Shown piece after piece: positions 18,733-28,465 of a DNA stretch of 64,000 nt. The stretch is from Chloroflexota bacterium (GTDB lineage Bacteria; Chloroflexota; Anaerolineae; Anaerolineales; Villigracilaceae). The stretch lies in assembly GCA_016195815.1 (NCBI GenBank), contig JACPYX010000003.1, positions 1 to 64,000 of the forward strand, written 5' to 3'. The notes beneath the pieces were generated by a model, which was not told where the DNA came from, searched no databases, and saw only the letters and a list, made by a program, of their open reading frames with translations. A program made the translations under genes and the position numbers. Numbering within the stretch: position 1 is the first letter of the stretch; each line of letters opens with the position of its first letter.

Positions 18733-19563
18733 TCATGCCTCGCGTGCGTCTCGTATCAACTTTTGCAAATTGCGTTTATGCAGAGCATCAGCCAATCCGC
18801 CGAGGTAGACACGGCTCTTGCCACACGCTTCAATCCCTGCATTATCCGCCATCTCTTCAGTCGGCTTGCGGCGGGCGGCTGCCTTGGCAACCTTTTTAAT
18901 ATTACTGATATAAGTTAAATTCTCTTTTACCGCCGCCTCGATCTCACCGCGCAGAATGATATCGCCGTGGCCCTGCACTATATTTTCAAGTCCCATTCGT
19001 CCGATCTTTTTAATGGAGACTGCAATTTCGTCTGCATTGCCATCCACTACATAGGGCAAAGGCATGAAAGCATCTCCCGCAAAAAGCACGCGATCTTCCT
19101 CTACCAGCACTGCAATTCCGTCTTCGCTGTGACCCGCCGCCGGTATGATCGTCAGATTCTTTTTGCCAACCCGCAGATTCATTTCACCGCTGCTGAACGT
19201 CATTTGCGGCAACACAATTTTGACCTGACGAAGCGCGGCGTTTTGCTTGCGCGCCGCTTCCAGCGACGGCCGCCCGAACTCATCCAAAAGACTACGGCAT
19301 CGTTCATGGGCAATAATGGTCGCACCGGGAAAGAAACAATTTCCCCAGGCGTGATCTGCATGATAATGGGTGTTGATCACATAACGCACCGGGACGCTCA
19401 ATTCATGTTCGATGAACTCGCGCATGCCGAGAGTCTCATCGGGCAACGCCAGCGTATCAATCACTATTGCCCATTGAGGCCCGGTCACTACTCCCGCCGT
19501 CACCTGGGCATAGACTTCACTCTGGAACCAAAAAACGTTTTCGGAAATTCGTTCGCGATGCAT
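18733..19563 (-). CDS. MBL-fold metal-dependent hydrolase
   Basis: The start is the ATG at 19561-19563, with GAGG seven bases upstream; a TTG four codons earlier is less likely. The 276-residue product has the metallo-beta-lactamase fold ligands THYHADHAWGN, the later histidine in AAGHSED, the aspartate in LFAGDAFMP and a final GHGD. The metal-binding set is complete, so a binuclear zinc hydrolase is expected. The substrate cannot be read; relatives include glyoxalase II and quinoprotein-relay-type MBL proteins. The C-terminal extension after residue 205 is helical and basic. The gene stands alone, convergent with plsY and divergent from the receiver-type gene at 19779. Confidence 0.88.
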   Translation of the reverse strand: MHRERISENVFWFQSEVYAQVTAGVVTGPQWAIVIDTLALPDETLGMREFIEHELSVPVRYVINTHYHADHAWGNCFFPGATIIAHERCRSLLDEFGRPSLEAARKQNAALRQVKIVLPQMTFSSGEMNLRVGKKNLTIIPAAGHSEDGIAVLVEEDRVLFAGDAFMPLPYVVDGNADEIAVSIKKIGRMGLENIVQGHGDIILRGEIEAAVKENLTYISNIKKVAKAAARRKPTEEMADNAGIEACGKSRVYLGGLADALHKRNLQKLIRDAREA

Positions 19564-19743
19564 TGATAACCTCAATTAGTGTTTCTATATAGATAGCACA
19601 AAGGGACAATAAAATCAAGTTGTTTAGACGTATTTCCGGGAAATTTCGTCCAATAATACGCCACAACAAAAAATTAGGCCCTAAAACATCAAAACACCAC
19701 ATTCACAGAGGCCAACCATTTCCTAAAAAAATTGCAAACTGGC

Positions 19744-19772: not shown

Positions 19773-19778
19773 TTGTCC

Positions 19779-21419
19779 GTGACCGAAAACTTGCTGGTTG
19801 TCACACCAAGCCCGAATTTCGGGGAAATGATCAGCCGTTCGCTTCAAGATGCGGATTCTTATCGCGTACATGTGGTCAGCAACAAGGCCGCGGCAGTTGT
19901 ACGCGCAGATGAACAAGGCTGCAAAATGGCCTTTCTCGATCTGAATTTGGGTGAACAATGGGTTGAAGAGATTGGACAATCGCTTCGCACAATCATCCCC
20001 GGCATTCAACTTTTTGTATTAGCCGATAACGAAACACCCCCGGCCTTGGATGTTATACGCCCGTGGACTCTCGTATGCAAACCCTTTCATTTTCCCGATA
20101 TTCTTAAATCAATTGCCTTCCCCAATACCGCACCCAAGACAACGCCGGCCCAGACACTTCCCTGGCTAAACGATGTCAGCAAGGCCGCGCAACACCTTAC
20201 TCGCATCACCCTTGAGAGTTCTTCACAGGCCGCGCTCATCACACGCGGCAGCGAGTTGTGGGCCTATGCAGGTCAACTTTCACAGGCCGCCGCGAAAGAG
20301 ATTGCACAAACCCTGGCTAAAAATTGGAGCGCACAAAAAGGCAGCGACCTTTTGCGCTTTGTCCGCCTAGAAAGTACAAAAGCCGAGCACATGCTCTACG
20401 CCACCGAACTTGCTGAAGATGCCCTGCTTGCCATGGTCTTCGACGCAGAAACGCCTTTCAGCACCATCCGTTCACAGGCCGGACAACTTGTAACCTCCCT
20501 CAGCGAAAACGAATCCAAAGAACAAAAGACCGAAAAACCGGCTGGGCCGAAAACATCCAAAACCGAACCGATCCTGGCCGCAAGCGAAATGGACGATGAA
20601 GACAGTGATGGCATTGACATTCCGGCCATTTCAGAAATCTTGACCGACATTCCCTCACCGGATCCAAAACCGGCCGCGAAAGTTCCACCGCAAGTGGACG
20701 ACAAACCCGCTCCGCTCCCGGACTTTAGCCGGCCACCCGTTGAACCGGGCGAAACCCGCCGTTCAATTTTTTCGCGTGAATCATCCACGCCTGTCCCGCT
20801 CAAAGATTTACTCCTCGCCGACCAACCCGCTAACACGGACCAAACTCTTCCATCGCAATCACAATCTTTAGAAAACCTGGAAGTCACCGCGCCTTCCAAA
20901 TCACAGCCGCGGCCTCAGACACCCGTTCGACGCCCCATGCCCGGCGAGTTGGATGATACACGACCGCATTCGATCAACGAAGTGGCGGGACGCATCGTGC
21001 TCGAACCGGTTTCAGCGGGTGTCTACCAGTTGACGTACGCCTGTTTGCTGGTGCCCCGCTTCACGTCCCACTATCTGACCGGCGACATTGCCGACCAGAT
21101 CTCAGCCTGGCTCCCCAACATCTGCATCGCCTTTGGCTGGCGACTGGAACATCTCGCCGTCCGTCCGGAATATTTGCAGTGGGTCGTCAATGTCCCGCCC
21201 GCAACTTCGCCGGGATATCTCATGCGCATCATGCGCCAGCAAACATCAGAAAAAGTTTTCGGCGAATTCCCGCGTCTGAAAAAAGAAAACCCCTCCGGCG
21301 ATTTTTGGGCGCCCGGCTACCTTATCATGGGCGGAACCCAGCCTCATCCTCCTCAACTGGTCAAGGATTACATCAAGCAAATCCGCCAGCGGCAGGGAAT
21401 CGAAAAACAGCATCGCTAA
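19779..21419 (+). CDS. Receiver-Roadblock protein with C-terminal degenerate IS200-type (Y1) transposase domain
   Basis: The 546-residue protein starts at GTG 19779 (a TTG two codons earlier is also open). Numbering from that TTG: residues 5-115 form a receiver-like fold with the phosphoacceptor candidate Asp56 (AFLDLNLG) and Lys103 (VCKPF), although the acidic pair after strand 1 is replaced by TPSP. Residues 134-243 resemble a Roadblock/LC7 domain. Residues 245-400 are a Pro/Ser/Thr-rich linker. Residues 405-542 follow the IS200/IS605 TnpA pattern: GWRLEHLAVRPEYLQWVV, MRQQTSEKVFGEFP, FWAPGYLIMGG and DYIKQIRQRQ. The HUH motif H-x-H is Y467-L-Q469, so nuclease activity should be lost while Tyr533 remains. 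A domesticated DNA- or RNA-binding module is inferred. Confidence 0.82.
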   Translation: MTENLLVVTPSPNFGEMISRSLQDADSYRVHVVSNKAAAVVRADEQGCKMAFLDLNLGEQWVEEIGQSLRTIIPGIQLFVLADNETPPALDVIRPWTLVCKPFHFPDILKSIAFPNTAPKTTPAQTLPWLNDVSKAAQHLTRITLESSSQAALITRGSELWAYAGQLSQAAAKEIAQTLAKNWSAQKGSDLLRFVRLESTKAEHMLYATELAEDALLAMVFDAETPFSTIRSQAGQLVTSLSENESKEQKTEKPAGPKTSKTEPILAASEMDDEDSDGIDIPAISEILTDIPSPDPKPAAKVPPQVDDKPAPLPDFSRPPVEPGETRRSIFSRESSTPVPLKDLLLADQPANTDQTLPSQSQSLENLEVTAPSKSQPRPQTPVRRPMPGELDDTRPHSINEVAGRIVLEPVSAGVYQLTYACLLVPRFTSHYLTGDIADQISAWLPNICIAFGWRLEHLAVRPEYLQWVVNVPPATSPGYLMRIMRQQTSEKVFGEFPRLKKENPSGDFWAPGYLIMGGTQPHPPQLVKDYIKQIRQRQGIEKQHR

Positions 21420-21440
21420 TAATTGCCTGCAATGAGTGAG

Positions 21441-21479
21441 CGCAGAGACGGTAAAATAAATCCGCTCTCTGCGTTTTTT
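21441..21479 (+). terminator. Intrinsic terminator before polA
   Basis: CGCAGAGA (21441-21448) pairs with TCTCTGCG (21466-21473), extended inward by CGG/CCG, and is followed by TTTTTT. It begins 21 bases after the previous stop, so polA needs its own promoter, which I could not place. Confidence 0.85.
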
Positions 21480-21515: not shown

Positions 21516-24311
21516 ATGCCACCTACACTTTATCTCATTGACGGGCACGCCCTCGCATACCGCATGTACTTCGCCCTGACTGCCGGATCGAACACACAAC
21601 GCTGGCAAACTTCCAAAGGCGAGCCGACTGCCGGCATTTATGGATTCGCACGCGAACTGTTACGCGTTCTCGAACATGAAAGGCCGGAATACCTGGCGGT
21701 CGCATTCGATGTTGGAAAAACTTTCCGCGATGAAATTTTTCCCGCATACAAAGGCACGCGCGAAAAAATGCCGTATGATTTGCGCCCACAGATCGAGCGC
21801 ATTCGCCAGATGGTGGATGCCTTCAATATTCCGCGCCTTGAAAGGGATGGCTACGAAGCAGACGACGTACTCGGCTCGGTGGCGCGCATCGCCGCCGAAC
21901 AGGGACTCGGCGTCAAGATCATCACCGGCGACCGCGACCTTTTGCAACTCGTCAACAAACGCACCGCGGTCTATCTGGCAGGCGATGACCAGAATTACAT
22001 CACCGATGAAGATGTGATCAAAAAACTTGGCGTGCGTCCCGATCAGGTTGTAGATTACAAAGCCATCGTCGGCGACAAATCCGATAACATCCCCGGCGTG
22101 CCCGGTGTCGGCGAAAAGACCGCTATTTCGTTGCTCGAAAAATTCGGCACACTCGATAACATTTATAAAAATATTGATCGAGTCGAGAATCGCTGGAAGA
22201 CAAAACTCGAAGCCGGAAAAGAATCGGCGCAGATGAGCCGCGAGCTGGCACACATCCACACTGACCTTGAATTCAAACTCGACCTCGAGCACGCCAAAGC
22301 CAACGCGTTCGACCCGGCAGCAATCGAAGCCTTCTTCGAGGAGCTTGAATTCCGCTCCCTTATCAAGACGTTGAACCGGCTGACCGGCAAAGAAGATTTG
22401 TCCACAACGGAGGCCGCTCCCGCCAAAAGAAGAAGCGGACAGCTTTCGATGTTTGTCAACGAGCCACAACCCATCTACGCGCCGAAAATTCAATCCAACA
22501 TCGAAGTTGTCATCGTAGACACGGACGCAAAATTGTCCGCGCTCGCGAAGGAACTCAACAAAGCCAAAGTCATTTCTTTCGACACGGAAACAACTTCAAC
22601 AGAAGAAATGCAGGCCGGGATCGTTGGCATTTCGCTGGCGATCAAAGAAGGCCAGGGGTTTTATATTCCGGTCGGGCATCTTTCAGGAAACAATCTAGAT
22701 TTACAAAAAGTTCTATCCGTTCTCCATGAACCATTAACCGATTCAAAAATTTCCAAGATCGCCCACAATGCAAAATATGATTACATCGTTCTCGCCAAAC
22801 ATGGACTAACGGTCTCGCCCATCACCTTCGATACGATGATCGCCGAATTCGTCGTTGACCCATCCTCGCGCAATCTGGGACTCAAGAACCTGGCCTTCAC
22901 GCGCCTCGGCGAAGAAATGACGCACATCGAAGAATTGATCGGCAAAGGCAAAAAACAAATCAGCATGGCAGAAGTTGCAATCGAATCCGTTGCGCCCTAC
23001 GCGGCCGCCGATGCGGAAAACACACTGCGGTTGCTGCCCATCATGCAAGCGGAAGTTGAGCACGTGCACGGACAAAAATTGATGGACGAAATCGAAATGC
23101 CGCTCATCTCAGTTTTGGCTGAAATGGAAATGACAGGCGTGCTTTTAGATTTGCCTTTCTTCAAAAAGTTGAACGCGGAACTTACCGGGCGCATGGATGA
23201 AATCGAGAAGCAGGTTTTCGAATCGGTCGGCAAGCCTTTCAATATCAATTCCACGCAACAGCTTTCGGATGTGCTGTTCAATCGTCTGCGCCTTGAGCCG
23301 CCGGATAAGGGCAGGAAGACCGCCAGCGGACATTATTCAACTTCGGCAGATGTGCTGGACGCTTTGAGCGGAAAACATCCTGTGGTGGATATGGTTCTTG
23401 AACACCGCGAACTTTCCAAGATCAAATCAACGTATGTGGACGCTCTGCCTGAAGCCGTTGATTCAAAAACGGGCCGCGTGCATACCTCCTACAGCCAAAC
23501 CGGCGCGGTGACCGGGCGTTTATCTTCATCGAATCCGAATCTGCAAAACATCCCGATCCGCACCGAGGAAGGCCGCCGCGTGCGAAATGGATTTATCGCC
23601 GCGAAAGGAAATGTTTTGCTCTCGGTGGATTACTCGCAGATCGAACTGCGCATTGTGGCGCACATGGCAAAAGATGAAGGCATGTTGTCTGCTTTCCGCG
23701 CCGGACAGGATATTCACGCCACAACCGCCGCCGCGATTTACAATATTCCGCTCGAACAAGTGACCAAAGAAATGCGCCGCCACGCCAAAGCCATCAACTT
23801 CGGGCTGATCTATGGCATGTCATCTTTTGGCCTGATGCGTTCGACAGAACTCACGCTGGCCGAGGCTGAAGATTTCGTCAAGGCATATTTCAGGCAATTC
23901 CCCGGAGTCAAAAAATATCTGGATGGCATCCGCGATCTGGCCGCGAAACAAGGTTACGTTGAAACGCTTTTAGGACGCCGGCGCTACTTCCCGGCTTTGC
24001 AGAGCAAGCAAAACGTGCAAATGAAAAATCGCGAAGAACGTGAAGCCATCAACGCGCCCATTCAAGGCACTGCGGCGGATATTATGAAAATCGCCATGCT
24101 TCGCATCCCGCCCGCGTTGAAAAAGGCCAAACTCAGTGCGCAGATGCTTTTGCAAGTTCACGATGAGTTGGTGCTGGAAGTTCCGAAAGCAGAACTGGAG
24201 AATACCGTCGAAGTTGTGAAAGAGGTAATGGAATCTGCTTACAGGTTGGACATTCCTCTTGAAACGGAAGCCCGTTCAGGTCCGAGTTGGGGCGAAATGA
24301 AAGTCCTGTGA
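21516..24311 (+). CDS. polA: DNA polymerase I
   Basis: PolA fills gaps and removes RNA primers during replication and repair. The start is the ATG at 21516, giving MPPTLYLIDGHALAYRMYF as in the family; the open frame upstream spans the previous terminator. The 931-residue product has three domains: the 5'-3' exonuclease with helix-hairpin-helix (DGYEADDVLG, ITGDRDLLQL, GVPGVGEKTA), a 3'-5' exonuclease that keeps its acidic residues (FDTETTS, HNAKYDY, AAADAENTLRL) and so should proofread, and the polymerase (TGRLSSSNPNLQNIP, SVDYSQIELRI, RRHAKAINFGLIYG, QVHDELVLEV). No Shine-Dalgarno is seen before the ATG. Confidence 0.97.
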   Translation: MPPTLYLIDGHALAYRMYFALTAGSNTQRWQTSKGEPTAGIYGFARELLRVLEHERPEYLAVAFDVGKTFRDEIFPAYKGTREKMPYDLRPQIERIRQMVDAFNIPRLERDGYEADDVLGSVARIAAEQGLGVKIITGDRDLLQLVNKRTAVYLAGDDQNYITDEDVIKKLGVRPDQVVDYKAIVGDKSDNIPGVPGVGEKTAISLLEKFGTLDNIYKNIDRVENRWKTKLEAGKESAQMSRELAHIHTDLEFKLDLEHAKANAFDPAAIEAFFEELEFRSLIKTLNRLTGKEDLSTTEAAPAKRRSGQLSMFVNEPQPIYAPKIQSNIEVVIVDTDAKLSALAKELNKAKVISFDTETTSTEEMQAGIVGISLAIKEGQGFYIPVGHLSGNNLDLQKVLSVLHEPLTDSKISKIAHNAKYDYIVLAKHGLTVSPITFDTMIAEFVVDPSSRNLGLKNLAFTRLGEEMTHIEELIGKGKKQISMAEVAIESVAPYAAADAENTLRLLPIMQAEVEHVHGQKLMDEIEMPLISVLAEMEMTGVLLDLPFFKKLNAELTGRMDEIEKQVFESVGKPFNINSTQQLSDVLFNRLRLEPPDKGRKTASGHYSTSADVLDALSGKHPVVDMVLEHRELSKIKSTYVDALPEAVDSKTGRVHTSYSQTGAVTGRLSSSNPNLQNIPIRTEEGRRVRNGFIAAKGNVLLSVDYSQIELRIVAHMAKDEGMLSAFRAGQDIHATTAAAIYNIPLEQVTKEMRRHAKAINFGLIYGMSSFGLMRSTELTLAEAEDFVKAYFRQFPGVKKYLDGIRDLAAKQGYVETLLGRRRYFPALQSKQNVQMKNREEREAINAPIQGTAADIMKIAMLRIPPALKKAKLSAQMLLQVHDELVLEVPKAELENTVEVVKEVMESAYRLDIPLETEARSGPSWGEMKVL

Positions 24312-24386: not shown

Positions 24387-26696
24387 ATGCCCGGACGAGA
24401 TGACGTTTACCAGAAAGTAATGAATGAGGGCCATTCGGCGGCCTGGGATCAGGATTGGAAGAAGGCCGCCGCTGCATATCGCAAAGCCCTGCAGGAATTC
24501 CCCGACCAGCCCAAGGCGCTAAACAGCCTCGGGTTGGCATTGTATCAATTGGGCGAACTTGATGAAGCTTTGCGTATTTATGAACGGGTCGCGCAGATCT
24601 CCATTGATGATCCCGTGCCGCTCGAAAAAGTTGCTCAAATCTCCGAACGCAAGGGCGATCTCAACACAGCCATAGAAGCCGCCATGAAAGCATCTGAAAT
24701 GTTCCTCAGCCAGCGGGATGTTGATAAAGCCATCGAGAACTGGGTGCGCGTCACAACGCTCAACCCCGATCATGTGATGGCACATTCGCGGCTGGCTATG
24801 GTGCATGAACGCCTCGCACAGCCGCAGCAAGCCGCCACAGAATATCTCGCCATCGCCAGCATCCTGCAACGCTCAGGCAAACCGGATAAAGCGCAGGAAC
24901 TGGTGGCCCGCTCACTGCGGCTTGTGCCGCAAAGTCCCGAAGCCAAGCAGGCCCAAACCCTTTTAAGATCAGGGCAACTGCTTCCCAAACCGGTGCGGCC
25001 CAAAGGCGGGACGGGGCCGATCAACATGGCCAAGGTGAAACAGTTGCAGGAGCCGAAAACACAGCCCGCCTCCAGCCTGGACCCGGTAATGGAGGCGCGT
25101 CAAAAAGCCCTCACCAAGCTGGCAGAGGTGCTCTTCGATTACGCTGACGAGAGTCCCAGCGCGCAGGAACGACGCGGCCTGTCCGCCATCGTCAAAGGCA
25201 CCGGGCAACTTTCCCTGCAGCAATCAGAACAGATCAAAGTGGTCATGCACATCGGCCAGGCCATTGATGCGCAAACAAAAAATCAAGAGAGTGTCGCATC
25301 GGAAGAACTGGAACATGCCATCGAAGCAGGTTTCAACCATCCGGCCTTGTACTTCAATCTTGGGTATCTGCGCGCCAAAAGCGACCGGTTGGAAAGCGCC
25401 ATCCGTAATCTGTCACACTCCATCAAACACAACGATTATGGTCTGGGATCGCGGCTTTTACTCGGAGAAATCTTATTCAAAAAGGGACAGGTCAAACAGG
25501 CCGCGTTGGAATATCTCGAAGCGTTGAAACTGGCCGATTCAATGACCGTTCCCGCCGAACAGGCGGATGAAATCCGCCAGCTTTACGAGCCGATAATCGA
25601 GACTCAGCAAAACCAGACAGATGATACGGCCAATCGCCGCCTGTGTGAAAACGTCAGCAAAATGTTGATGCGCCGCGACTGGCGCGATCAAGCGCATCAC
25701 ACGCGCGAGCAGATGCGAAAAACGCAGGAGGGCGATACACTCACGCCTCTGGCCGAAGTTGTCTTGCAGGCGCAAAGCTCCAGCGTCATCGAATCGATCA
25801 ACCGTATTCACCAGTTGGCGCGCATTGGCAGTCTGCGTTCGGCAATGGATGAGGCTTACGATGCCGTCCGACATGCGCCGACCTATTTGCCTCTTCACAC
25901 CCTGATGGGCGATCTGCTCATTCAGGAGGGCCGCAATCCGGATGCCATTGCCAAGTTCAAAGTAGTGGCACACGCATACAGTGTGCGCGGTGAAGTGGTA
26001 CAGGCCACCAAGCTTTTACGCCGCATCATCCAGATCGCACCGATGGATCTATCGGCGCGTGCGCGTTTAATTGACCAGCTTATTGCGCGCGGCCAGGTGG
26101 ATGATGCGATCAAGGAATATCTCGAACAGGCGGATATTTACTACCGCCTGGCCGAACTCGACATGGCGCGCAAGACCTACACCACCGCCCTGCGCCTCGT
26201 TCAACAAGCAAACGCCGACCGGGCCTGGAACGTCCACATCCTGCAGCGCATGGCCGACATAGACATGCAGCGCCTGGATTGGAAGCAGGCCCTGCGCGTC
26301 TATGAACAAATCCGCACCCTGCGCCCCGACGATCAAGGTTCACGCAAACAACTGATTGAACTCTATATGCGCATGGGCCAACAAACACAAGCCCTGGCCG
26401 AACTTGAAAGCTTCATGGGGTATCTTGACAGCAACAACAAGGCCAATGATTCGCTCCCCTTCCTGGAGGATATGATCAAGGAGCATGAAGACCAGATTAT
26501 CTTCCAACGCATTCTGGCCGAGCAACTAAACAGGCTTGGCCGCAAAGACGAAGCCATTGCTAAACTCGACGCGCTGGGCGAATCGCTGTTGGCGAACGGC
26601 AAAAGGACAGAAGCGAAGGAGGTCATCAACCAGATCATGCTGATGAATCCGCCTAACGCAGAAGACTACCGTCAATTGCTGATACAGATCGGATAA
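24387..26696 (+). CDS. Tetratricopeptide-repeat protein
   Basis: The 769-residue protein is built of TPR-type helix pairs along most of its length, clear at residues 14-110 (WDQDWKKAAAAYRKALQEFP, ALNSLGLALYQLGELDEALR), again around 310-390 and over 480-740. A basic, proline-containing linker (LLPKPVRPKGGTGP) at about 200-215 divides the protein in two. There is no signal peptide, membrane helix or enzyme motif, so a cytoplasmic scaffold is likely; its partners are unknown. A consensus -10 box six bases upstream of the ATG suggests leaderless initiation. A hairpin terminator follows directly, so it appears to be its own transcription unit. Confidence 0.88.
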   Translation: MPGRDDVYQKVMNEGHSAAWDQDWKKAAAAYRKALQEFPDQPKALNSLGLALYQLGELDEALRIYERVAQISIDDPVPLEKVAQISERKGDLNTAIEAAMKASEMFLSQRDVDKAIENWVRVTTLNPDHVMAHSRLAMVHERLAQPQQAATEYLAIASILQRSGKPDKAQELVARSLRLVPQSPEAKQAQTLLRSGQLLPKPVRPKGGTGPINMAKVKQLQEPKTQPASSLDPVMEARQKALTKLAEVLFDYADESPSAQERRGLSAIVKGTGQLSLQQSEQIKVVMHIGQAIDAQTKNQESVASEELEHAIEAGFNHPALYFNLGYLRAKSDRLESAIRNLSHSIKHNDYGLGSRLLLGEILFKKGQVKQAALEYLEALKLADSMTVPAEQADEIRQLYEPIIETQQNQTDDTANRRLCENVSKMLMRRDWRDQAHHTREQMRKTQEGDTLTPLAEVVLQAQSSSVIESINRIHQLARIGSLRSAMDEAYDAVRHAPTYLPLHTLMGDLLIQEGRNPDAIAKFKVVAHAYSVRGEVVQATKLLRRIIQIAPMDLSARARLIDQLIARGQVDDAIKEYLEQADIYYRLAELDMARKTYTTALRLVQQANADRAWNVHILQRMADIDMQRLDWKQALRVYEQIRTLRPDDQGSRKQLIELYMRMGQQTQALAELESFMGYLDSNNKANDSLPFLEDMIKEHEDQIIFQRILAEQLNRLGRKDEAIAKLDALGESLLANGKRTEAKEVINQIMLMNPPNAEDYRQLLIQIG

Positions 26697-27166: not shown

Positions 27167-28063
27167 TTATGGAACGGCAACCGTGAAGAACGAACGGCTT
27201 TCTAACAACTGCAACTGTATCGCTCTTTCAGTTGGATAGTTTGTGACAATCAATTCTGTCATCTTGCCCCGCCGATTGCCGTTGCAGTTAATAGCACGAT
27301 TGGCTAAAACTTCGTTTATCTCAAAAGAATATGACGAGAATAGATCGCGGACTGTTTCAGTGTCAGAATTAGACAAGATAATATAAATGTTTCGCTTGGT
27401 CAATTCAATACAAACATCTCTTAATCTGCGCTGATCGTTTATTGAAAATCCATTTGCTTGATATGATGTAAAATTTGCCGTTTGTGAAACTGGAACATAA
27501 GGAGGGTCAAAATAAACTAAATCACCTTCATTTGCGTACTCCAGCACTGTTTCAAAAGATGCGTTGTGAATATCAACTTCCTGCAATGCAGAACTTACGG
27601 CTTGTAAATTCTCTTTGTCCAAATACTTCGGGTTTTTATATTTACCAAAAGGAACATTAAACCCACCGCTTTTATTCACCCGATACAAGCCGTTATATCC
27701 TGTCTTGTTCATGTAAATCATTCTTGCGGCTCTGGCAGGCAAATTCAAATCTAAAGGATTTTTAGAACGCAACTGATAATAAAATTCTTCATCGTGCGGA
27801 TATTTTGACAACTCTTTAATAACTGAGTTCCGATTGTTGCGAATGGCGCAATAAACATCTATTAATTCTGAGTTTAGATCAGAAATGCGAGCATGTTTAA
27901 TTTTTCCATCTCGATACAAGTTGAAAAATAAAGCCCCTCCCCCTAAAAATGGTTCGTGGTAATTATTAAACTCAACTGGTAGGCGATTAACTAACTCATC
28001 TACTAATTGAGTTTTACCACCAGCCCATTTTATAAACGGACGAGGAAGCGAATTATTATTCAT
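27167..28063 (-). CDS. DNA adenine N6-methyltransferase, Dam/D12 class
   Basis: The 298-residue protein has the D12-class layout: motif [12 protein letters not shown] at residues 10-20 for S-adenosylmethionine binding, [12 protein letters not shown] shortly after, the region [13 protein letters not shown] and the catalytic motif IV DPPY at 186-189. Dam-class enzymes methylate adenine, often in GATC; the specificity here is inferred from family only. It lies 12 bp downstream of a PD-(D/E)xK nuclease gene on the same strand, which makes a type II restriction-modification pair the simplest reading. Codon use is AT-richer than in the neighbouring core genes. An attC-like box follows the stop codon. 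Confidence 0.93.
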
Positions 28064-28075
28064 CAGAAGTTACCT

Positions 28076-28465
28076 TTATAATGCGAAGTAAAGTTTTAAC
28101 CAGTCGCTCAAATCATCAAACCAAACTACTTTACCAGTTGACATCAAATAGCCTTGCATATTGGCTGAAAAACCTTCGCCATCAATTACGACAATCCCAG
28201 GGATTGGCCAAGATTCAATATCTGAAACTGTTGCAGGAATTTTTTCTTCAGCAGAACCACTACCACCTTGAAATTTACATTCTATGCCGAGATTTTTCCC
28301 AGTCTTTTCTTGAGTAATAACAACGTCAATGTGTCGTTTTGCTCCCCATAAACGGCGTGCCGCAGTAACTTCCGTGTCAACTTTTAGACCGAGACTGAGT
28401 GCTAAATCGGCAACTCTGTTTTTCAATTCGTCGCCACTTTTGGGTGCAGTTCCTTTACCTGGCAT
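28076..28465 (-). CDS. PD-(D/E)xK nuclease, probable restriction endonuclease
   Basis: This 129-residue protein has the core of the PD-(D/E)xK nuclease fold: Asp47 in HIDVVI, then Glu62-x-Lys64 in GIECKFQGG, with a preceding helix (DELKNRVADLALSLGLKV). The following segment (SAEEKIPATVSDIESW-IPGIVVIDG) is the strand-helix unit found in restriction-type members. It is short for a restriction enzyme and might alternatively be a repair-type or accessory nuclease, but its position directly before an adenine methylase on the same strand supports a restriction role. GAGGTAAAT precedes the ATG. An extended -10 promoter lies at 28508-28516. Confidence 0.75.
   Translation of the reverse strand: MPGKGTAPKSGDELKNRVADLALSLGLKVDTEVTAARRLWGAKRHIDVVITQEKTGKNLGIECKFQGGSGSAEEKIPATVSDIESWPIPGIVVIDGEGFSANMQGYLMSTGKVVWFDDLSDWLKLYFAL

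Follow-up and report, generated by a model that had tools for sequence, protein, structure and literature searches.

TnpA_REP (RAYT) proteins, as described in two papers (PMC6006769, PMC8266576), keep both HuH and Tyr and act on REP hairpins. TldR is a non-cutting protein that has been reused as an RNA-guided regulator, according to its description (PMC13418256). Proteins in which a Response_reg domain is fused to a Robl_LC7 domain have been noted (PMC4316618), and that paper contains 0 mentions of transposases. A survey of TnpAY1 proteins was based on a main sample of proteins with both HuH and Tyr and discarded a few unexpectedly long proteins (PMC6006769). A receiver-Roadblock-Y1 family would probably have been removed by these filters of length and of HuH plus Tyr, which may explain why the family considered here was missed. 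The literature search, whose coverage excluded most subscription journals, returned no description of a Y1 domain together with a receiver or a Roadblock domain and no papers combining Anaerolineae, transposase and Roadblock. An earlier reading of this DNA, made from its letters alone (the sequence-only reading), had stated that it knew of no described family with this combination, and none was found in the literature searched.

The gene compared with these systems lies at positions 19779-21419 on the forward strand of the window (the whole stretch of 64,000 nucleotides that was analysed). It encodes 546 residues from a GTG start, comprising in order a receiver, a Roadblock domain, a linker and an apparently dead Y1 domain. 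An in-frame TTG is present at 19773, and the reading frame continues without internal stop to 21419. The residue numbers used throughout are counted from 19773, and the GTG start at 19779 agrees with a conserved Met column (residue 3). The receiver-like domain (residues 4-118, positions 19782-20126) was delimited using the predicted model, its structure match and column counts, and the Roadblock/LC7-like domain (residues 128-245, positions 20154-20507) using Foldseek and its strong conservation. The linker (residues 246-403, positions 20508-20981) is variable and proline-rich, with low conservation and a pN of 0.23-0.30, and the Y1 domain of the IS200/IS605 TnpA type without metal site (residues 411-542, positions 21003-21398) was delimited by profiles and model and has a pN of 0.04-0.07. 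Downstream on the same strand, a terminator-like hairpin followed by a T run (21438-21473) separates the gene from an ORF at 21516-24311, which we take to be polA (DNA polymerase I) and whose adjacency is conserved. The third gene of the conserved block encodes a TPR-repeat protein (24387-26696, forward strand; Pfam TPR matches and synteny). The divergent neighbour on the reverse strand (18733-19575), often conserved in synteny, is presumably a metallo-beta-lactamase-fold gene. Further along the window, at 27167-28465 on the reverse strand, a DNA adenine methylase-like ORF lies beside a small nuclease-like ORF, and the two resemble a restriction-modification pair. PADLOC yielded no family for the window protein.

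The C-terminal domain was matched by Pfam Y1_Tnp over residues 417-536 (E 1.8e-12, 47.9 bits, cut-off 23) and by NCBIfam NF033573 (IS200/IS605 transposase, equivalog) over residues 416-536 (57.1 bits, cut-off 55). A sequence search of solved structures returned TnpA of Sulfolobus and of ISDra2 with E values of 4.7e-11 to 7.1e-9. A model of the domain was predicted from 28 homologues (pLDDT 90.1, pTM 0.82) and compared with known structures, giving Z scores of 13.9-16.6 for 15 TnpA entries and of 7.2 or less for unrelated rows. The individual comparisons gave Z 16.6 and rmsd 1.9 for Sulfolobus TnpA (2ec2, 109 aligned), Z 14.9 and rmsd 2.1 for IS608 (2vju, 107 aligned) and Z 8.1 and rmsd 3.1 for the REP transposase (4er8, 107 aligned). 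The fold of the C-terminal domain is genuinely that of an IS200/IS605 (Y1) transposase, and a chance origin of the match is excluded because of the profile scores and the conservation over 91 distinct sequences. The sequence-only reading had recognised an IS200/IS605 TnpA-like C-terminus and had suggested that the predicted fold be compared with TnpA of IS608. A fold unlike Y1 or the lack of a significant Y1_Tnp match would, by its own terms, have refuted it; the Pfam, NCBIfam and structure-model matches bear it out on both counts, the fold being Y1-like in the comparison with 2vju and the Y1_Tnp match significant.

In alignments with four solved TnpA structures, the H-x-H columns correspond to Y467 and Q469 of the window protein. 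The former metal site is thus Tyr467-Leu468-Gln469 (21171-21179, forward strand), the exact bases at which the sequence-only reading had placed Y-L-Q instead of the HUH histidines. H-x-H is present in three of the four aligned structures and 2fyx (dr_0177) reads Tyr-Val-His; a Tyr at the first position alone is therefore not diagnostic, the lost second His being the diagnostic change. Among 91 distinct sequences, the window's being one of them, 90 have Tyr at 467, 89 have Gln at 469 and 89 read Y-x-Q; this set leaves out the window's duplicate, the stand-alone TnpA loci L028-L030 and identical proteins, has some members cut at the 5' end and overlaps the 137-protein set described below. Trp512 is retained in the window's Y1 domain, as is Tyr533 at the catalytic Tyr position (21369-21371, forward strand; Phe in 5 of the 91), and the position four residues after Tyr533 is Ile in the window and Gln in most intact TnpAs. 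Judged from its sequence, the Y1 domain is almost certainly unable to cut and rejoin DNA, its metal site being gone.

The class was surveyed using the receiver-Roadblock profile and a widened Y1 profile, with the loci fetched, and at least 137 distinct Roadblock+Y1 proteins were obtained from class Anaerolineae. Among the matches listed, H-x-H plus catalytic Tyr was found in 0 of 137 proteins and Y-x-Q in 91 of 137, the first His being kept in 11, the second in 8 and both only in L250. L250 was considered as a live member and rejected, as its tail is without a Tyr at the expected place. The catalytic Tyr position was Tyr in 84, Phe in 48, Leu in 3 and a gap in 2 of these 137 among the matches listed. 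The His residues that are kept look like relics of H-x-H. A Roadblock match is lacking for 28 Y1 domains; 13 of these carry H-x-H, all 13 with Tyr, and the remaining 15 comprise dead copies of the family, fused genes that are truncated or incomplete, and the TnpA fragment L122. The relic His residues and the 13 of 13 H-x-H domains with Tyr make decay from an active enzyme the natural direction, in a tree that is itself unrooted. This tree (85 rows, 134 columns, with long branches and the Y-x-Q group hand-thinned to 60 fused rows) splits 13 intact TnpAs from the dead domains by a branch with support of 100/99, and it discriminates weakly between a single origin of the dead Y1 domains and independent captures. 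Pfam Y1_Tnp scores in five relatives, all above the Pfam cut-off, were 66.4 (L168), 47.1 (L120), 43.5 (L118), 37.3 (L189) and 26.2 bits (L198).

Y1 profile matches occurred in 105 of 201 genomes of the order and 79 of 298 genomes of the class, stand-alone TnpAs included. The receiver-Roadblock profile matched 21 of 301 phylum genomes at E 1e-20, with no match outside the class at this value, a strict cut-off by which diverged class members (e.g. G232) were missed too. The wide Y1 profile matched 77 of the 301 phylum genomes, and the six long-frame Y1 matches outside the class that were inspected were all H-x-H TnpA-type and without a receiver-Roadblock match. In one locus outside the class (L273, G238:C1), an internally deleted H-x-H TnpA continues in frame into what looks like TnpB sequence.

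The gene was found in all 24 sampled genomes of its family, the window's own included. A contig scan returned 123 relatives, and the titles of 80 listed loci were mainly those of Anaerolineae or Chloroflexi bacteria. The window's genome (97.9% complete) contains no second Y1_Tnp match at E 1 or better; with this single match and the conserved synteny, the gene was found to be neither scattered nor multi-copy. Constraint relative to four genus-level homologues is quoted as pN because dS was near saturation in these comparisons, and was 0.042-0.072 for Y1, 0.096-0.125 for Roadblock, 0.223-0.237 for the receiver and 0.231-0.296 for the linker, Y1 being the most constrained part of the protein in all four. 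The loss of H-x-H and the match of Y1 to a transposase family would be expected of an ordinary insertion-sequence remnant, accidentally fused and drifting, but the presence in 24 of 24 family genomes, the strongest constraint falling in Y1 and the synteny in 13 of 18 families rule out a decaying insertion sequence and leave such a remnant extremely improbable. The best reading of these data is a long-established gene of Anaerolineae chromosomes whose Y1 domain was anciently domesticated and is non-cutting. The domestication that the sequence-only reading had suggested is accordingly upheld by synteny, purifying selection and wide spread in the class, the transposase fold having been retained in the service of the host.

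A model of residues 1-245 (pLDDT 90.7) displays both the receiver and the Roadblock folds. The receiver part aligned with CheY4 (4h60) with Z 17.5 and rmsd 2.0 (115 aligned). The Pfam receiver score of the window protein is 14.7 bits, under the cut-off of 30.2; the cut-off was exceeded in five of seven relatives scanned (L168, L171, L189, L206 and L120, not L118 and L198). Receivers carry an acidic pair, a phospho-Asp and a Lys as functional residues. Of the homologues with a residue at position 56, 80 of 81 retain the Asp, and Lys103 is retained by 80 of 83 (Lys103-Pro104 in the window), whereas the acidic-pair columns (residues 11-12, as assigned by the analysis's own alignment) are without Asp or Glu in 80 of 81 and read Thr-Pro in the window; at residue 13, 12 of the 81 have Asp or Glu. 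Foldseek matched the Roadblock domain to MglB chains (probability 1.00, E 4e-7 to 4e-6, rmsd 2.6-3.7), including MglB 6hjm and 1j3w with E values of about 5e-7. Pfam Robl_LC7 was absent from the matches of the window protein, and NCBIfam MglB scored 16.6 bits, far under its cut-off of 200. The genome encodes two further Roadblock proteins. The Roadblock domain is strongly and the linker weakly conserved in the alignment of 91 distinct sequences. Roadblock and Y1 were found with no receiver match in nine ORFs that have an upstream stop within the locus (L006, L007, L040, L044, L053, L054, L152, L178 and L254; of 15 Roadblock+Y1 proteins lacking a receiver match, the other 6 are cut by the locus edge), so that Roadblock+Y1 may be a more durable core than the receiver. 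The predicted model thus reproduces the receiver-like and Roadblock/LC7-like folds that the earlier reading had placed upstream in the same chain. The signal control that it had proposed is doubtful, since the acidic pair is gone and receiver-less ORFs exist, although Asp56 and Lys103 are kept, and for the receiver in the window's lineage a remnant that binds protein is a likelier reading than a switch worked by phosphorylation. The orthologues L189, L190 and L192 (974-1256 residues) contain an acidic, proline-rich insert of several hundred residues between receiver and Roadblock.

The start of polA is 96 bp after the window gene and the TPR gene is next, an order that recurs across the order Anaerolineales, including homologues L118 and L119 at 26-31% identity. 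Among the matches listed, 115 of the 137 Roadblock+Y1 proteins that could be tested are followed on the same strand by polA at a distance of up to 1 kb (median 109 bp), from 141 distinct C-termini of which 4 with too little downstream DNA were set aside. It was not within 1 kb in 22 of the 137 testable among the matches listed, in 6 of which it lies at 1.1-2.9 kb. By family, the link was present in 13 of 18 Roadblock+Y1 families and not in f116, f125, f134, f135 and f143, in a table of 20 families that was compiled from a hand-made list of the tool's labels and in which related genomes are not independent. Y1 is missing from f11, f132 and one f3 genome; f11 and f132 are both polA-linked. Among 21 testable Y1-less Roadblock homologues, polA was adjacent in 6, three of which overlap it by 4-11 bp, and none was nearby in 15; the family table omits 12 Y1-less loci (L188, L191, L193-L197 and L199-L203), none with polA found nearby. 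As the link occurs in Y1-less homologues, the pairing of receiver-Roadblock and polA may predate the spread of Y1 seen today. Adjacency to polA alone is no proof of shared function.

The 36-bp hairpin at 21438-21473 occurs once in the genome and has a differing sequence in relative L033. A similar terminator-like hairpin with T run was present in 49 of 54 close homologues, where mononucleotide shuffling gave 10 of 54 on average, the intergenic stretches (26-699 bp) being taken from loci L031-L110 and the window, with close pairs that are not independent. With a hairpin between the gene and polA, co-transcription is not assured. Gaps of 3-40 bp or overlaps precede polA in several deeper lineages. 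A REP-type substrate beside the gene was considered and found unsupported, the hairpin being single-copy. The excess of hairpins over shuffled sequence, the restriction of this one to the present site in the genome and the synteny across many families would favour a protein that acts as a local regulator of polA, binding the hairpin in the intervening transcript and controlling read-through or translation. The short gaps or overlaps of deeper lineages, however, leave little room for a hairpin, and the structure, whose sequence changes in L033, may be an ordinary terminator; such a regulator is judged unlikely.

The most likely reading, to which we would give slightly less than an even chance, is that of a structure reader without catalysis, built on a Roadblock scaffold and having Pol I as its partner or target. 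In this reading, an IS200/IS605-type Y1 domain became attached to a receiver-Roadblock protein whose gene lies immediately before polA. With its metal site it lost, almost certainly, the ability to cut and rejoin DNA, and it would still recognise structure, binding single-stranded DNA in a folded form, or else hairpins of RNA, and leaving them uncleaved. In relatives, the Roadblock domain pairs with a second copy or with a GTPase, and here it would provide a dimeric scaffold. The place beside polA would reflect a task shared with DNA polymerase I: structured DNA of the lagging strand or of repair might be marked or held for the polymerase, or the expression of polA adjusted. What we infer here, as against observe, is the binding of hairpins, the signal control and the connection to Pol I. 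A hint of binding is given by Arg485, Arg488 and Lys/Arg494 (conserved in 90, 89 and 89 of 91 distinct sequences, respectively), which would lie on a helix equivalent to the DNA-binding helix of TnpA_REP described in PMC8266576. Arg488 aligns with Lys in 2ec2 and 2fyx. IS608 and ISDra2 target the lagging-strand template, as stated in PMC6006769, which makes a partnership with Pol I attractive.

The mean net charge of the fused Y1 domains is +0.6 (+2.35 in the Y-x-Q group) compared with +5.4 in 13 intact TnpAs, and nucleic-acid binding may therefore be weak or lost. This lower charge is consistent with a Y1 domain that is now purely a protein-protein (dimerisation) module, Roadblock and Y1 together forming a signalling scaffold that perhaps regulates a small GTPase. 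Intact TnpAs act as dimers, and the Roadblock and Y1 halves are both strongly conserved. PMC4316618 connects the Roadblock protein MglB with Ras-like GTPases. The conservation of basic residues on the counterpart of the TnpA_REP helix, the adjacency to polA and the stand-alone copies, which precede a gene for an Mrr-type endonuclease in 6 of 8 testable loci, argue in the other direction, and a pure scaffold is regarded as doubtful.

Stand-alone dead copies occur in the window's family. In the 85-row tree, the eight such copies of family f1 form one clade (support 100/99) among the fused domains and, given this placement, are probably duplicates. The Mrr-type gene is on the same strand and follows directly in L111, L113, L117 and L265 and after one ORF in L112 and L266; in L114, a ninth stand-alone locus, the contig breaks off. 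Pfam Mrr_cat was confirmed in both proteins scanned (L112 and L113), and Pfam TPR matched the product of the third gene at L111, L113 and L117. The QxK motif of the Mrr proteins is kept in L111 and L117 and reads QxR in L112 and L113. A non-cutting module beside a nuclease would fit a targeting role. Two dead Y1 copies were observed close by each other in L117 (2052-2486 and 3234-3680), and genome G387 has five Y1 matches in all. The structure reader favoured above could be extended to class-wide partners of Pol I, in which a non-cutting HUH domain would read folded single-stranded DNA and Roadblock would relay this to Pol I, a replication or repair cofactor born of a transposase whose dead domain was re-released with an Mrr-type endonuclease; this extended form is rather doubtful.

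A fold the same as that of TnpA, in a genome without other Y1_Tnp matches, would also suit a guard against IS200/IS605 elements that captures hairpin ends or forms mixed dimers with the transposase. However, Y1 is strongly constrained though no TnpA was detected in the window's genome, and in genome G464 the fused gene (L256) coexists with a TnpA that has H-x-H (L232), so that exclusion is incomplete; a guard function is considered very unlikely.

Compared with the TnpA proteins of IS200/IS605 elements (IS608, ISDra2), the window protein has the fold in common, at 13-24% identity over structure alignments, and differs in having Y-x-Q where TnpA has H-x-H, in carrying the Y1 domain behind a receiver and a Roadblock domain, and in being encoded by a chromosomal, syntenic gene present as one copy in the genome. 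TnpA_REP (RAYT) is likewise a domesticated Y1 family with a related fold (4er8, Z 8.1), whereas the window protein has lost HuH while keeping Tyr, and its nearby hairpin is single-copy. TldR derives from TnpB and has a fold unrelated to TnpA. It is a sister case, in which the other IS605 protein was made non-cutting and reused, the protein here being TnpA and not TnpB; unlike for TldR, we know of no guide RNA for the window protein. The Response_reg-Robl_LC7 fusions combine receiver and Roadblock in one chain, as here, the window receiver being without the acidic pair. The window protein would belong to a known kind, that of dead or tamed mobile-element proteins, and what appears new against the literature searched is a widespread, metal-dead TnpA that is fused to Roadblock and tied to polA. 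The known reuses of IS200/IS605 proteins are an active TnpA (TnpA_REP) and a dead TnpB (TldR); a metal-dead TnpA beside polA would, if true, be a third route, and whether a HUH domain serves the cell without cutting would become a question testable with one purified protein.
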